A DNA stretch of 64,000 bases, taken from positions 62,001-126,000 of the forward strand of contig NZ_AMRX01000007.1 in the NCBI RefSeq assembly GCF_000300815.1, read 5' to 3'. The stretch comes from Gayadomonas joobiniege G7. GTDB taxonomy: Bacteria; Pseudomonadota; Gammaproteobacteria; Enterobacterales; Alteromonadaceae. Position numbers and translations under genes: made by a program. The notes under the pieces were generated by a model, which made no database searches, was not told where the DNA came from, and worked only from the letters and a program-made list of their open reading frames with translations. Positions 21,601 through 58,570 of this stretch are shown one piece after another; the first letter of the stretch is position 1; every line of letters starts with the position of its first letter.

Positions 21601-21954
21601 ACCTTCGTAAGCTTCCATGATTTGCAACATAAAGCTGCCATCATCATTTGTTTTAACCGTTACAGGCTCGGTTTGTAATGCTTCACCTTTGTTTCCATCA
21701 GCGGATAGTTTATACACACTCACCACTGCATTTTTTAATATGCCTTTGACCGCTGTACCACTTATCTCAGCTGTTGCCACTGGCGTTGGCGTTGGCGTTG
21801 GCGTCGGCGTAGGTGTCGGTGTTGGAGTCGGTGTCGGAGTCGGAGTCGGCTCGACAAATTTTGGATCATCTGAGCCAATAAAGTTACATGCAGACAATGC
21901 CCCCGTGGCTAAACACATGAGTAGGCTTGTTTTAATTTGACTTGCTACTTTCAT
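18652..21954 (-). CDS. Large lipoprotein with Thr-Pro spacer and cadherin/Ig-like repeats
   Basis: An 1100-residue lipoprotein: signal peptide with lipobox LSAC (Cys23) followed by Asn, consistent with outer-membrane sorting. A (Thr-Pro)11 spacer from about residue 37 probably extends the protein from the membrane. A carboxypeptidase-regulatory-like segment (ATAEISGTAVKGILKNAVVSV) and a helical region of about 200 residues come next. Then three beta-sandwich repeats (about 410-680) contain the tandem-95/VCBS-like pattern (DFNGTDTFTYSV, DYNGTDTLVYTV, DASGSDSVKYRV). The last 400 residues are unrecognised, mostly beta. AGGAT precedes the ATG. Likely a surface adhesin or matrix protein; this is inference from architecture. 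Confidence 0.75.
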   Translation of the reverse strand: MKVASQIKTSLLMCLATGALSACNFIGSDDPKFVEPTPTPTPTPTPTPTPTPTPTPTPVATAEISGTAVKGILKNAVVSVYKLSADGNKGEALQTEPVTVKTNDDGSFMLQIMEAYEGPIYIQVSAVDGTLMACDVVAGCGGDSQFGDEVAVPSGFSLAAISMLTHEDGEDKAVLSNNVNILTNIAAKLAVETIDAAPSLDVSHVIAAVNSKVAEIFGLGEGIDATQLPVIDLTDIESIKTLDEIESYQAALLGSVVAAKAFASTDFNLFMQSSSQDIADNMGTIKVRITGSDDEQRLTLKETVDLIKELNDKLAQLLVNMVNESDLSDTEKQAAVAEINQVFQNKIELSQAVNNIVSATISEINELIEAGQADGRSGEALDPSEIGVPVTGPVLVGRLLVDNKTVEEDGAITFDPTANDTLRIKNADTDTAAVQLTQVSQAGHGQAVIADGKITYTPNPDFNGTDTFTYSVSALGQTRSEVVNITVTPVRDTLDADITIDEDDSDTRSIGSHAADSIASVSITSLPQHGQATVTSDNQIRYQPAADYNGTDTLVYTVTVEGTGETEAGTFAYTINPVTDAIDDSLTLNQYVTADINLLENDKFSGPVGSVTLLDGDTEVTSLTTEKGQLSVTSAGLLSYRPIGDASGSDSVKYRVTTDSGIIEEALVTVQIDSNDQTNAAREMIEDVRTWGAYLFPDKFELPRDLANDTEDLFNTLDVAAPVFEEELTNLKMIGDVVNLLNQIFTDIDEGKTDKRQFNSQDIAVYDDSITGVIEINELANDEASFIVNLAQDGVTLIGETGIQLPKASDTDVSRKVEARIAAELNAGSTKVTIEQGQFIITVAGAAHKTEAEHEVLQHDLSGKIELMQNAVPGKLNDSVRFNGALDIRLLKGRQLTLQDKDGDQQMFDMYLPSSITAEGEFTVNSKDTIAATFGLTIANAATHRLPEPIVVNDLDELDINFELEDDNNWLNLTASLSFFANPSVRSQGEVTVMLTRIGKDTVTLNAELDDNNSQLVLFFDTDDESRVTIHNSITNGNGLALTYDENGLYPDTIGDDDASYIVGEIRNQNDADKLVATLEKQGDLIVVYYTDTEFFETLY
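21781..21849. repeat. Hexanucleotide repeat coding for the (Thr-Pro)11 spacer
   Basis: Eleven consecutive 6-bp units of the form NGGNGT (plus strand) encode Thr-Pro on the minus strand. The four units nearest 21781 are identical (TGGCGT); the others differ at third positions. The identical block could slip during replication, always in whole codon pairs, so length changes would keep the frame. Confidence 0.85.
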
Positions 21955-53757: not shown

Positions 53758-55935
53758 TTAAAAGTTAAATGAAGCCGACACTTTAAGCGTACGTGGTTCG
53801 CTTAAAACTAAATAATTAGAGCCGGGAAAGCCACCCACAGATGCCCAGTAGTGATTATTAAATAGATTATCAATACGAGCACGTAAAGTAATATCAGTCA
53901 TACCAGCAAAAATGTTGTACCGCGCGCCTACATCAAAACGGTTTGACGCGTCCACTTCCAACGAGTTGTCGGCACTGGCATATTGCTCTGAAGTGTACGC
54001 CGCACGTGCATCTAGGGTTAAACCCGGCAATTCAGTGACGTCCCATTCAACGTTCACGTTTGCTTGCACGTTAGGCACACCAATCGCCGTTTTACCATTG
54101 AGTAAACCGTCTTGTGTTTTTTTCATTTCAGCGTCAATCCAAGTAAATCCGCCGATCACTCGCAGATTATCGGCTGGCATCCCAAATAGGCTAAGTTCTA
54201 GGCCTTGATTTTGCTGCTCGCCATCCGTGCCAAATACATTATTATTGATCACAGAGGTTTGCTTTGCAGTATTAAACAAACTTACTGAGCCACCAAACTT
54301 ACCCGCATCGTATTTTAGCCCCACCTCAACCTGCTCTGCTCGGTACGGGTCAAACACTTCGCCGGCGTTTTCAACTGCTTCGCCACCACTGCTGGCAGGC
54401 GCGACATCACCCGGTAATAAACCCTCAATGTAATTAGCATAAGATGAAAACTGCTCAGAAAGCTTATACACAACCCCAACCACCGGCGTGAATTGAGACT
54501 CATCATAACCTGACTGCTCATCACCTGAGTTATAATCATAGGTATAGGTTTTAATGTTCTGATAGCGACCACCTAAGGTAACCAGCAATTTGCCATCGTT
54601 AAATGACAGCATATCGGCCAGCGCAATACTCGCAAGCTCTGTTTTTTCCGTAACCAGGGGATTATTCAGGTCGCCCCCCACAAAGGCATCTGCTACCGGC
54701 ATTTCAGCGGTTTCTGGGTGATAAAGGGTACCAGCATCAAACCTTGCAAAACTTGAAAACGCATAAGCATTTTCCGCTTCAAGCGAAAACACAGACGCAG
54801 ATGAAATTAACGTATGCCCAACCGGCCCCGTTTTAACGTCAATATTAATCCCAATTTCGCCTGATTCTACGTCTTCGTTGCGTACATTATCAAAACGGTA
54901 CGCTCTAATATTCCCGTTATCTTGGAGTGTCGGATTGGCAAAACGGTTTTTTTCTTCGCCGTTTCTAAAACCATAGGCTGCCCAGCCAGTGACTTTGTCG
55001 GTAAAATCATACTCACCACGCACGGCACCAAATAACTGCCACTCATTTGAGTATGTCCAGTTTTGGGCAAAATTAGTCTCGCTATCTGGTGCTTCATAAA
55101 TAATATTTGACGGTGTGACTGCCGGACGCGGCGCATCAACTTGATGGTCTTGAAAGCCCAAATCGAGTGAAACTCTCAAATTTTCATCTTTGTGATCTAG
55201 ACCAATAGATGCAACACTTAAATCGCGATCCTGATTTTCAACTGATGTTTCACCATTACGTTTGACTAGATTAGCGCGTATCCCTGTACTATTGTCTTGC
55301 TCACCAAAACGACGGCTGACGTCTACAACGCCGTAAACATGCCCCTTTGCTTCGTATCCCAAGGTGATACGGTTAAGCGGATCTTCTTCGGCGCGTTTGG
55401 GTACTATATTGACGGAGCCACCTAAACCACTACCACCCGGAGAAGCACCGTTTAAAAAAGCACTCGCCCCACGGAATACTTCCACCCGCTCTAATAATTC
55501 GGCTGCCACATATTGGCGAGGTAAAATGCCGTATAACCCATTGTATGTCATATCATCTGAATATACAGGAAAACCGCGCATCACATAAAGCTCTTGAAAA
55601 TTACCAAACCCTTTAGCAACACGTACAACAGGATCGTTTTGCAGCACGTCAGCAACACTTTTTGCTTGCTGTTCACGAATCAGTTCAGCCGTGTAGTTTG
55701 TGCTGTTAAAAGGTGATTCCATCATGTCCAAATTACCCAATATGCCAGCTCGGCCGCCTCGGGAAACTTGACCGCCTGCAAAACTATCACGTAAATTAAC
55801 TTGTGATGCTGTCACTGTGATATGTTCAATCGCCTGATCTTCGTCTAGCTTATTTTGCTCTGTTTGCGCGTGGGCGGGGATATTTGCGCTCATGAAAGCA
55901 GCGATGACAACTAGAGTAATTTTAGGTGAGTTCAT
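53758..55935 (-). CDS. TonB-dependent siderophore receptor
   Basis: Outer-membrane receptor of 725 residues. It has a signal peptide (MNSPKITLVVIAAFMSANIPAHAQ), a plug domain (about 45-190; SVADVLQNDPVVRVAKGFGNFQELYVMRGFP, then VFRGASAFLNGASPGGSGLGGSVNIVPKRA) and a 22-strand-type barrel ending LKVSASFNF with the terminal Phe. The plug pattern fits hydroxamate/catecholate siderophore receptors (FhuE/FpvA-like); the ligand is not determined. It heads an operon with a small membrane protein, a PepSY protein and a GNAT enzyme, and a Fur box lies upstream. Confidence 0.94.
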   Translation of the reverse strand: MNSPKITLVVIAAFMSANIPAHAQTEQNKLDEDQAIEHITVTASQVNLRDSFAGGQVSRGGRAGILGNLDMMESPFNSTNYTAELIREQQAKSVADVLQNDPVVRVAKGFGNFQELYVMRGFPVYSDDMTYNGLYGILPRQYVAAELLERVEVFRGASAFLNGASPGGSGLGGSVNIVPKRAEEDPLNRITLGYEAKGHVYGVVDVSRRFGEQDNSTGIRANLVKRNGETSVENQDRDLSVASIGLDHKDENLRVSLDLGFQDHQVDAPRPAVTPSNIIYEAPDSETNFAQNWTYSNEWQLFGAVRGEYDFTDKVTGWAAYGFRNGEEKNRFANPTLQDNGNIRAYRFDNVRNEDVESGEIGINIDVKTGPVGHTLISSASVFSLEAENAYAFSSFARFDAGTLYHPETAEMPVADAFVGGDLNNPLVTEKTELASIALADMLSFNDGKLLVTLGGRYQNIKTYTYDYNSGDEQSGYDESQFTPVVGVVYKLSEQFSSYANYIEGLLPGDVAPASSGGEAVENAGEVFDPYRAEQVEVGLKYDAGKFGGSVSLFNTAKQTSVINNNVFGTDGEQQNQGLELSLFGMPADNLRVIGGFTWIDAEMKKTQDGLLNGKTAIGVPNVQANVNVEWDVTELPGLTLDARAAYTSEQYASADNSLEVDASNRFDVGARYNIFAGMTDITLRARIDNLFNNHYWASVGGFPGSNYLVLSEPRTLKVSASFNF

Positions 55936-55983
55936 TGAGACTCCGTATCAAAAAAAGAGCTAAGAATATTCATATTCGCATAT

Positions 55984-56002
55984 GATAACCGTTTTCATTA
56001 TC
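55984..56002. promoter_or_regulatory. Fur box upstream of the TonB receptor operon
   Basis: GATAACCGTTTTCATTATC matches the 19-bp Fur consensus GATAATGATAATCATTATC at 14 positions, with both outer arms intact. It lies 49 bp before the receptor start, so iron-dependent repression is expected. Confidence 0.85.
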
Positions 56003-56135
56003 ACCCTCAATCACATTGTGGTGTGTACAAGTTTTTCCATTTAAACATGCAGTTATTGAGGAGAGCCGTGCTAATGAGTTCAGCTAGCTGACAAAGAGAG
56101 TTATGATAAAATTCTACGAATGATGGGTTTTGAAA

Positions 56136-56212
56136 TGGTGGCCCCACCTGGACTCGAACCAGGGACCTAACGATTATGAGTCGTGCGCTCTAACCAACTG
56201 AGCTATAGGGCC
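56136..56212 (-). tRNA. tRNA with CAU anticodon, probably tRNA-Ile2
   Basis: A 77-nt cloverleaf with encoded CCA. The acceptor stem is GGCCCTA/TGGGGCC, the D arm GCTCAGTTGGTTAGAGC, the anticodon loop CTCATAA (anticodon CAT), and the T arm CCTGG-TTCGAGT-CCAGG. The body resembles E. coli ileX/ileY (lysidine-modified Ile2) more than elongator or initiator Met, so TilS is expected to modify C34. The base pair 27-43 at the top of the anticodon stem appears mismatched (C-T). Its first 19 nt are part of the tandem repeats upstream. Confidence 0.88.
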
Positions 56213-56564
56213 ATTTTGTGTTTAAGCTATTTTATTTTCATCCTTGAAGGTTCATTCCCGTTCGGTCATCCACGACCTCACCTTCAGGACTTTCGGCGTG
56301 ACTTTAAGTCACCCCTCATGAACCGCCCTTCAGCCAACTGAGCTATAGGGCCATTTTGTGTTTAAGCTATTTTATTTTCATCCTTGAAGGTTCATTCCCG
56401 TTCGGTCATCCACGACCTCACCTTCAGGACTTTCGGCGTGACTTTAAGTCACCCCTCATGAACCGCCCTTCAGCCAACTGAGCTATAGGGCCATTTTGTG
56501 TTTAAGCTATTTTATTTTCATCCTTGAAGGTTCATTCCCGTTCGGTCATCCACGACCTCACCTT
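56194..56564. repeat. 140-bp tandem repeat (2.65 copies) containing the tRNA 5' end
   Basis: Copies at 56194-56333, 56334-56473 and a partial one at 56474-56564 (91 bp), identical where they overlap. Each unit begins (plus strand) with the 19 bp that encode tRNA nucleotides 1-19. So the transcript carries two 5' tRNA fragments before the complete tRNA. The other 121 bp hold a structured element: GGTTCAT (56249-56255) with ATGAACC (56318-56324), and inside it GGTC/GACC and the palindrome GTGACTTTAAGTCAC (56298-56312). Confidence 0.95.
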
Positions 56565-56612
56565 GTTAAACAAAACGAGCATTGTTATACATGCCGTTTT
56601 TTAGTGCTGCGA

Positions 56613-56641
56613 AGTATAATCAAGTCTCTCCCCACTGTCAC
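56613..56641 (-). promoter_or_regulatory. Strong sigma-70 promoter for the tRNA
   Basis: Minus strand GTGACA, 17-bp spacer, TATACT (5 of 6 in both boxes). It lies beyond the repeat array, so the primary transcript would run through all repeat copies, about 395 nt, before reaching the mature tRNA 5' end. Confidence 0.7.
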
Positions 56642-56691
56642 TTTTTTTTCTTAATTTTTTGTTTAAGTGATTATTTTTTCTTCACTAAAAC

Positions 56692-56720
56692 AAAAAAGCC
56701 TCTTTAAAAGAGGCTTTTTT
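56692..56720 (-). terminator. Rho-independent terminator of rpoD
   Basis: AAAAAAGCCTCTTTAAAAGAGGCTTTTTT: AAGCCTCTTT/AAAGAGGCTT stem with flanking A- and T-runs, 20 bp past the rpoD stop on the minus strand. Confidence 0.9.
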
Positions 56721-56740
56721 AATCAACCGATAAAAACGAA

Positions 56741-58570
56741 CTACTCATCTAAGAAGCTGCGCAGTTGCTCAGATCGTGATGGATGGCGTAATTTACGTAA
56801 TGCTTTGGCTTCAATCTGACGGATACGCTCACGTGTCACATCAAACTGTTTGCCAACTTCTTCTAACGTATGGTCGGTATTCATATCAATACCAAAACGC
56901 ATTCTAAGTACTTTAGATTCACGCGCAGTTAATCCAGCTAAAACGTCTCGAGTCGCGTTTTGCAAGTTTTCAGAGGTTGCAGAATCAACCGGTGAACTAA
57001 TAGTGCTGTCTTCAATAAAATCACCTAAATGCGAATCTTCATCATCACCAATCGGCGTTTCCATAGAAATTGGCTCTTTGGCAATTTTCATCACTTTACG
57101 GATTTTATCTTCCGGCATTTGCATTTCTTCTGCCAGCTCTTCCGGGGTTGGCTCACGCCCTTTTTCTTGCAACATTTGACGCGAAATACGATTTAACTTA
57201 TTAATAGTTTCAATCATATGTACTGGAATACGAATCGTTCTAGCTTGGTCGGCGATCGAGCGGGTGATGGCCTGACGGATCCACCAAGTTGCATAAGTCG
57301 AAAACTTATATCCACGGCGATATTCAAACTTATCTACCGCTTTCATCAAACCAATGTTACCTTCTTGAATCAAATCCAAAAATTGTAAACCCCGATTGGT
57401 GTATTTTTTTGCAATTGAAATAACCAAACGCAAGTTCGCTTCGACCATCTCTTTTTTCGCTCGGCGGGCTTTAGCTTCACCAATCGACATACGACGGTTA
57501 ATATCTTTAATATTAACAACGCTTAACTTGGTTTCTTCTTCAATTTGCTTGAGTTTTTGTACACACCGCAAGATTTCATCTTTAAATTCGATTAATTTTG
57601 ACGAATGAGGTTTATCATCAGCAATGGCTTTATCTAACCAAGCAGTTGAGGTTTCGTCGCCAGCAAATGCTCGGGTAAATTCTTTTTTCGGCATTTTGGC
57701 ATATTCAACCGCATATTTGATGATAATGCGTTCTTGGGTACGCACTTTATCCATCATAGAGCGCATATGGCCCACTAACAGATCAAACTGCTTAGGCACT
57801 AACCGGAACAATTTAAACACATTGCTTAATTCGTCGATCACGGCACGTGTTTCTGGATGACTACGACCATGCGTATCCACCACTTGCATCACTTTTTCAT
57901 ACGCGGCCCTCAACTCAGCAAATTTTTCTCGTGCCAGTTCAGGATCTATCCCGGTATCTTCTTCTTCTTCGTCTTCGTCATCTTCGTCGTCTAAATCGTC
58001 TTTAGACAATTCAGAACCCACGTGAGTTGCCGTTGGGGACATCACTTCGTCAGATTCATTTGGGTCTATGAATCCAGAGACAATATCTGTTAAGCGAATT
58101 TCTTCCGCTTCAACTTTGTCGTATTGATCCAATAGGTAAGTAATAGCCTCAGGAAATTCTGCGACTGAGCATTGAACCTGATTAATTCCGTCTTCGATAC
58201 GTTTGGCGATATCAATTTCGCCTTCGCGTGTTAACAGCTCAACGGTACCCATTTCACGCATATACATGCGCACAGGGTCGGTCGTGCGACCGATTTCGCT
58301 TTCTACCGAGGCCAACGCTTGAGCAGCCGCTTCGGCTGCTTCTTCGTCGGTGGCTGTCGTTTCGTCGGACATCAATAATGAATCTGCGTCTGGCGCAGCT
58401 TCAAATACTTGAATGCCCATGTCATTTATCATGCTGATGATGTCTTCGATCTGATCCGAATCAACGATCTCTTGCGGCAAGTGATCGTTTACTTCAGCAT
58501 AAGTTAAATAACCCTGCTCTTTACCTTTCGCAACGAGCAGTTTAAGTTGTGACTGACGGTTTTGCTCCAT
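56741..58570 (-). CDS. rpoD: RNA polymerase sigma-70 factor RpoD
   Basis: Housekeeping sigma factor of 609 residues (E. coli 613). Region 1.1 opens [32 protein letters not shown]. An acidic stretch ([14 protein letters not shown], about residues 190-205) precedes the non-conserved region. Region 2 has [59 protein letters not shown], region 3 begins [16 protein letters not shown], and region 4 ends [32 protein letters not shown]. It follows dnaG in the macromolecular-synthesis cluster and has its own promoter in the gap. Confidence 0.98.

Follow-up and report, generated by a model that had tools for sequence, protein, structure and literature searches.

How does a tRNA gene come to lie behind repeated copies of its own 5′ end? 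The question is raised by a locus of Gayadomonas joobiniege G7 in the window, by which we mean the whole 64,000-nucleotide stretch of DNA analyzed here. In the assembly, between a putative promoter and the CAU-anticodon tRNA gene that follows rpoD stand 2.65 copies of a 140-bp unit, each composed of an 85-nt element, which we call E, a 36-nt leader and 19 nt of tRNA sequence.

Results

Architecture of the tandem array

The tRNA gene at the end of the array (56136–56212, minus strand) is intact (ARAGORN; Rfam tRNA, 69.7 bits), carries the anticodon CAT and is the only tRNA that ARAGORN calls in the window; from its position after rpoD, we take it to be probably the AUA-reading tRNA-Ile2. TRF places the repeats at 56194–56564 (period 140, 2.7 copies, 100% matches, score 742) and, together with a check of positions, bears out a sequence-only reading of this DNA, which had described a 140-bp unit containing exactly the first 19 nt of the tRNA. 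Along the minus strand, on which all of these features lie, the array opens downstream of a promoter-like site, GTGACA-17-TATACT (56613–56641), with a truncated third copy of E that has only the 3′ 36 nt (56529–56564). There follow a leader (56493–56528), an orphan tRNA 5′ arm (56474–56492), a full E (copy 2, 56389–56473), a second leader (56353–56388), another orphan arm (56334–56352), a second full E (copy 1, 56249–56333), the leader adjoining the tRNA (56213–56248) and the tRNA itself, whose first 19 nt (56194–56212) are the duplicated part. A terminator-like hairpin after rpoD (56691–56721, minus strand) separates that gene from the tRNA promoter.

The 19-mer GGCCCTATAGCTCAGTTGG thus occurs three times, once in the real gene and twice in the orphan arms, both of which are exact copies of tRNA nt 1–19; past nt 19, the orphans read CTGAAGGGC where the tRNA has TTAGAGC. 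They are not tRNA pseudogenes, as the copies stop at nt 19 and have no recognizable tRNA body. The 5′ part of the inner element is present twice (56285–56333 and 56425–56473) and the 3′ part three times (56249–56284, 56389–56424 and 56529–56564), so the array consists of two full units and one cut short on the promoter-proximal side. With a structural model of E described below (R1), each full copy scores 76.2 bits and the truncated copy 27 bits (34 bits with model R2). Copy 1 begins with CTGA directly after the GG of the orphan arm, and its second hairpin is shorter than in relatives. The promoter-like site is the only one found in 56050–56800 and lies beyond the array, where it had been expected from sequence; because shuffled versions of the region average 1.0 such sites, the promoter call rests on the similar boxes that precede the same tRNA in relatives. 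Separately, TRF reports short tandem repeats with a 6-bp period (TGGCGT / GTCGGA) at 21781–21849 of the window.

E is a conserved structure found across the family

E is a gene-free, structured element of roughly 85–130 nt, with a non-tRNA core of 85 nt in the window. In the four-helix model R1, built on eight cores, 91.1% of cells are paired, compared to 76.1% in shuffles and 28–43% in slid controls, and 12 of the 24 pairs show changes on both sides. When 129 distinct sequences are aligned by fitting to R1, both-sided changes appear in 23 of 24 pairs, with 713 double-changed cells versus 208 in shuffles; pairing in helix 1 covers only 75% of cells. G-T exceeds A-C by 138 to 58, a ratio biased by the model fitting. 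The conserved structure and the G-T excess could mean that E functions as RNA. Rfam has no family for E in the window (55900–56900) or in 14 related loci, and the Plastid-ycf2 and HPnc0260 matches that it lists in the window fall on tRNA sequence read antisense.

Most copies of E start with GTGA directly after GG (CTGA in the window), and each of the two bases before E is G in 92 and 96, respectively, of the 103 copies scoring at least 50 bits. When the 112-nt non-tRNA part is searched against 395 genomes of the family, similar cores appear in other genera, the better ones 79–86% identical over 56–81 nt and four more 97% identical over 30 nt. R1 matches occur in 68 of these 395 genomes and 17 of 52 genera (E-value ≤ 0.01). 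In wider draws at E-value ≤ 1e-4, R1 matches 10 of 295 genomes of the order, six of them from the same family and this genome among those, and 9 of 369 genomes of the class, this genome included (8 of 368 others). Because strict filters were applied and no more than 11 to 15 candidates were scored in each genome, the per-genome counts of E from these model searches are minima. A search for a 25-nt pattern that allows two ambiguous bases yields 15 stretches of named genomes, from Arsukibacterium, Aestuariibacter, Salinimonas, Aliiglaciecola, Lacimicrobium, Alteromonas, Paraglaciecola and one Marinobacter MAG. Family here means a kinship grouping that puts the matching genomes together; NCBI taxonomy places Arsukibacterium in Chromatiaceae and lists Aestuariibacter halophilus as Fluctibacter in Alteromonadaceae.

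No further copy of E was found in the Gayadomonas joobiniege genome beyond the array, and of eight genomes searched from its genus this is the only one that has E. The earlier description of the inner element as a mobile or dispersed repeat is consequently wrong for the genome and right for the family. Tandem units are also present in the assemblies of other species, two in each of L246 and L261 and five in L084 (G012:C1:2398724-2399286), where they have a 119-bp period, lie between ndk and rlmN and have no tRNA in the locus.

E often lies beside RNA genes, preceded by a copy of the gene end

For analysis of placement, 141 R1 matches were reduced to 138 (three in L150 repeat L094) and then to 135 distinct copies by removing identical copies and those less than 60 nt from the start of a locus. 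The loci are the best-scoring matches plus 60 further chosen regions (one of which, G239:C1:1-100, was useless) and are thus picked by score rather than at random. Among the first 19 loci (L065–L083), a tRNA of one of six kinds (CAT, Arg-ACG, Arg-CCG, Gly-GCC, Leu-CAA or Ser-GGA) lies downstream in 18, and in 17 the core is preceded by a copy of the start of that same tRNA. This copy is decayed or interrupted in several loci (L078 and L080–L083); in L068, which is not among the 17, what is copied is the leader, and the copy stops at nt 2 of the tRNA. The L069 locus lacks a tRNA and contains five tandem copies of 119 bp.

Across the whole sample, 71 of 135 copies have a tRNA or 5S gene no more than 300 nt away; the other 64 have none at this distance. 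The arrangement is strongly polar, with the gene on the 3′ side of E in 66 of the 71 and on the other side in 5. Fifty of the 66 read into a tRNA 5′ end, and 16 read antisense into the 3′ end of a gene (11 at 5S genes, 5 at tRNAs); when 20 such loci are searched with Rfam, 11 have a 5S match, 10 of them together with 23S. A direct repeat of the gene end, extending at least 5 nt into the gene, accompanies E in 58 of 66 cases, compared to 12 of 236 pairings of unlike loci, which were judged by score alone. Of the eight exceptions, one (L092) has a long repeat of the leader that stops at nt 2 of the gene, three score 10–11 and four score 6–8. The repeat runs up to the GG before E and is that of the neighboring gene, whether CAT, Arg-CCG, Arg-ACG, Gly, Leu, Ser, Val, Lys or 5S; some repeats take in the leader and others only part of the gene. 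The pattern holds at tRNA 5′ ends and, with E antisense, at the 3′ ends of tRNA and 5S genes.

Where the repeat ends depends on the class of gene. At tRNA 5′ ends, it stops at nt 19 in 31 of 50 cases, at nt 18 in five Ser cases and at nt 12 in nine CAT cases, in which the copy is changed beyond that point. At tRNA 3′ ends, it stops 9–16 nt from the 3′ end, and in 10 of 11 5S cases it stops 27–29 nt from the 5S 3′ end. Outside the family, matches score between 26 and 82 bits, and roughly half lack a tRNA within 600 nt. There, L220 repeats exactly the first 47 nt of a CAT tRNA; L212 and L218 repeat antisense the 3′ ends of tRNA-Arg (AATAATGGCGCGCTCGGGAGG followed by GTGAGCC) and tRNA-Ser, respectively; and L215 has an Arg-like 5′ end before E on a contig that stops before any gene.

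Among the 64 copies farther than 300 nt from any RNA gene, 22 have a repeat ending at E, several of which are tandem copies or lie farther from a 5S gene, and 42 have none; duplication is therefore not an invariable result of insertion. Five loci of this kind have ordinary neighbor genes (ndk and rlmN, for example), and 9 of the 10 flanking proteins contain a Pfam domain, none a transposase.

Filled and empty sites within one genus

In the genus of Arsukibacterium (g18), the interval between rpoD and the tRNA could be read in 30 of 31 genomes. One or two full copies of E are present in 13 loci, 11 are empty, and 6 contain remnants or other changes: remnants in L254 and L259, a second kind of insert alone in L238 and L253, a rearrangement in L239, and in L256 both the second kind of insert and an N stretch inside an element. 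The site was suspected to be a hot spot of expansion and contraction, and finding 0, 1 or 2 units at the same position within one genus supports that suspicion. After removal of 154 nt, L255 is identical to L257 over 119 of 119 nt, a precise filled/empty difference of the MITE-like kind; the insert in relatives is 153–154 nt, repeat included. Two further filled/empty pairs are alike at 145 of 150 nt (L234/L236) and 128 of 133 nt (L233/L240). In L233/L240, the left leader resembles the empty leader and the right leader is of another type, making loss by recombination between the repeats as likely as gain; indeed, loss is as possible as gain in all three pairs.

The same rpoD–tRNA site holds other rearrangements. 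In L238, L253, L256 and L046, the second insert consists of a tRNA copy extending to the anticodon loop and then ~50 nt with a GTGGTAC(C/A)ATAG motif; by eye, the beginning of this ~50-nt part could pair with the tRNA copy in a new stem. After rpoD in L239, a tRNA cut at the T-loop is followed by TTATGTGGTATAG and another partial tRNA, an arrangement that resembles the border of an integrated element.

Predicted consequences for the precursor RNA

The precursor strand is more stable than dinucleotide shuffles (z = −3.9). All folding predictions for precursors ignore the order of transcription and processing. In these predictions, acceptor-stem probability is 0.99 without the array and 0.15 with it, whereas one-unit constructs give 0.008 without the true 5′ end and 0.66 with it. 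The earlier proposal that orphan arms compete with tRNA folding is therefore in keeping with the thermodynamic prediction, and its size is fragile. Across 18 precursors, native E gives a higher acceptor-stem probability than the shuffled-E median in 14 but exceeds the shuffled mean in only 7. Because of this split, and because these precursors are mutually related (two are constructs of this window) and have starts guessed from the promoter pattern, we do not claim that E shields the orphan arm.

In the window and in g18, the first 9 nt of E can pair with the tRNA arm (−12.2 to −17.5 kcal/mol), using CCCT/AGGG in the former and CCCC/GGGG in the latter. When heads of E are swapped over 12 gene types, with one representative per type, native and swapped heads behave alike (permutation, 0.46), which argues against a general rule of head–arm pairing and hence against general co-adaptation of the head of E with the orphan arm.

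Discussion

Our results are best explained if E is mobile but non-autonomous, inserting at GG inside the ends of RNA genes and duplicating the end it enters, and if the window holds a local tandem expansion; we think this account is probably correct. We observe a covarying structure, a GG junction, gene-specific duplication, a polarity toward the gene and one precise filled/empty difference, and from these we infer mobility, a choice of target and an origin of the tandem array by recombination. In the proposed mechanism, E would insert at GG within the end of a tRNA or 5S gene and copy that end, such that the gene on its 3′ side stays whole through the copied end. The resulting direct repeats would then permit loss and tandem gain by recombination, leading here to 2.65 units. 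Where the tRNA promoter is upstream of E, as in the window, every copy would give the precursor an additional orphan arm for RNase P and exonucleases to clear.

Several observations bear on how such insertion might work. First, the antisense copies at 5S and tRNA genes argue for a step at the level of DNA rather than for a product of tRNA transcripts. Second, a direct repeat that may be a target duplication of the MITE-like type accompanies 58 of 66 copies at RNA genes and 22 of 64 elsewhere. Duplication may be intrinsic to insertion or may be what selection leaves after insertions into essential genes; the many repeat-less copies elsewhere favor a role for selection, and selection for intact genes may shape the pattern seen at RNA genes. 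Finally, searches for Y1 transposases and for split halves of E revealed no mobilizing enzyme. Y1 (PF01797) is present in 6 of 10 genomes searched and has no match in this genome (G000) or in the E-rich genomes G012, G358 and G044. In six genomes, every match to a 5′ or 3′ half-element motif lies inside a whole-element match and none lies apart, with two further matches proving to be whole, weak elements (25.9–33.4 bits). By eye, no family-wide terminal inverted repeat is apparent in E.

Among known systems, the closest kind is the tyrT/tyrV repeats of Escherichia coli with RtT RNA (Rfam RF00391, rttR), in which tandem units by a tRNA likewise each carry a copy of a tRNA end. At the E. coli K-12 tyrV locus, the units are spaced by 178 bp and end in a copy of the tRNA-Tyr 3′ end. 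RtT, too, starts after GG (GGGGAAGG followed by ATGAGAAG); it differs in copying the 3′ end of the tRNA, whereas the window array copies the 5′ end. RtT (RF00391) has no match in 55900–56900 of the window at E-value ≤ 10; conversely, R1 scores 5.7 bits on rttR units and R2 gives nothing at E-value ≤ 0.01. With neither sequence nor structure matching in either direction, E is RtT-like in layout and not a member of RtT. Downstream of tRNAs in relatives, RtT-like sequences score 39.1 (L068), 35.5 (L077) and 26.8 bits (L076), all below the gathering score of 45. At 1920–1990 of L068, a terminator hairpin downstream of tRNA-Ser is lengthened by an inverted copy of the tRNA 3′ end, which runs into GG followed by GTGAGAAC, an RtT-like start. 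In the same locus (1676–1860), two copies of the tRNA-Ser start enclose a further insert that looks structured, differs from E and contains a GGCCCCGAAGGGGCGAAG stretch resembling one in RtT.

Other comparisons are looser. REP/BIME elements, mobilized by RAYT transposases, are like E short, structured, dispersed and non-coding; the structure of E is larger and multi-helix, and the lack of Y1 matches in this genome, G012, G358 and G044 led us to reject RAYT/REP membership. CRISPR or casposon integration also duplicates a target stretch, but the length of the repeat varies in E, leaving an analogy only. From the preference for GTGA, we presumed a likeness to HEARO, the omega RNA of IscB, and rejected it, as Rfam reports no HEARO row in the window or in 14 related loci. 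BIMEs with similarity to rtT have been described (PMC2965389).

The alternative with the strongest case is that E is a functional RNA of tRNA and rRNA operons, RtT-like, acting in cis or after release (for example in tRNA processing, termination or the stringent response) and spread by duplication and gene conversion. Strong covariation, the position of E at the CAT site, downstream of a conserved promoter and ahead of the tRNA, and the median comparison of acceptor-stem probability are all consistent with such a role, the last tempered by the comparison with shuffled means. In addition, a study of Actinobacillus pleuropneumoniae (PMC4986893) reports Northern signals for two RtT-family RNAs upstream of tRNA genes. 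Nevertheless, E is antisense to the gene in 16 of 66 cases (5S and tRNA 3′ ends), 64 of 135 copies lie more than 300 nt from any RNA gene, including five loci between ordinary genes, only one of eight genomes of this genus carries it, and empty sites are common. We judge this alternative to be rather unlikely.

We are more doubtful still that the array is the remnant of a site-specific integrative element, such as a phage or island, with an att site in the 5′ half of the tRNA. Like E, integrative elements in tRNA genes leave one whole and one partial copy of the tRNA around the insert, and partial copies at the borders are typical of them (PMC9897764); moreover, cuts often fall at the GG at nt 19 (31 of 50 tRNA 5′ cases). 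However, the insert is only about 120 nt and gene-free, and the duplicated piece differs at each tRNA and in many cases includes a non-coding leader, which a single att site cannot supply. In addition, the 25-nt pattern occurs in no viral contig, phage and plasmid collections yield one partial match each (29% and 33% of the query), and two motif searches of six genomes uncovered no integrase-bearing element with E at its ends.

Plain tandem duplication of chance sequence upstream of the tRNA, by slippage or unequal crossing-over with no element involved, would fit array copies that are 100% identical over the matched stretch at a single site in the genome, but is very improbable as the whole explanation given the homologous, covarying cores at the same and other RNA genes of many genera, although it is still likely for copy number, and replication slippage may account for the step from one to 2.65 units.

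Returning to E as a mobile element that copies gene ends, there are several broader implications. Our literature search, with subscription journals mostly outside its coverage, found no description of an element that copies tRNA 5′ ends. Decades after they became known, the repeats of the E. coli tyrosine tRNA operon still have, to our knowledge, no accepted origin; copies of gene ends at many tRNA and 5S genes, together with empty sites, make the origin of the tyrT repeats testable. It is possible, and we raise it tentatively, that gammaproteobacteria harbor a superfamily of mobile structured elements that target GG and copy tRNA or 5S ends, with the tyrT/RtT repeats of E. coli as one branch. 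If so, the copied arm may be both a signature of the target and a device that keeps an essential gene alive. More generally, E shows how a tRNA gene can receive a short insert at its start and stay whole, and orphan arms in tRNA precursors offer a natural test of tRNA folding and of the choice of site by RNase P.
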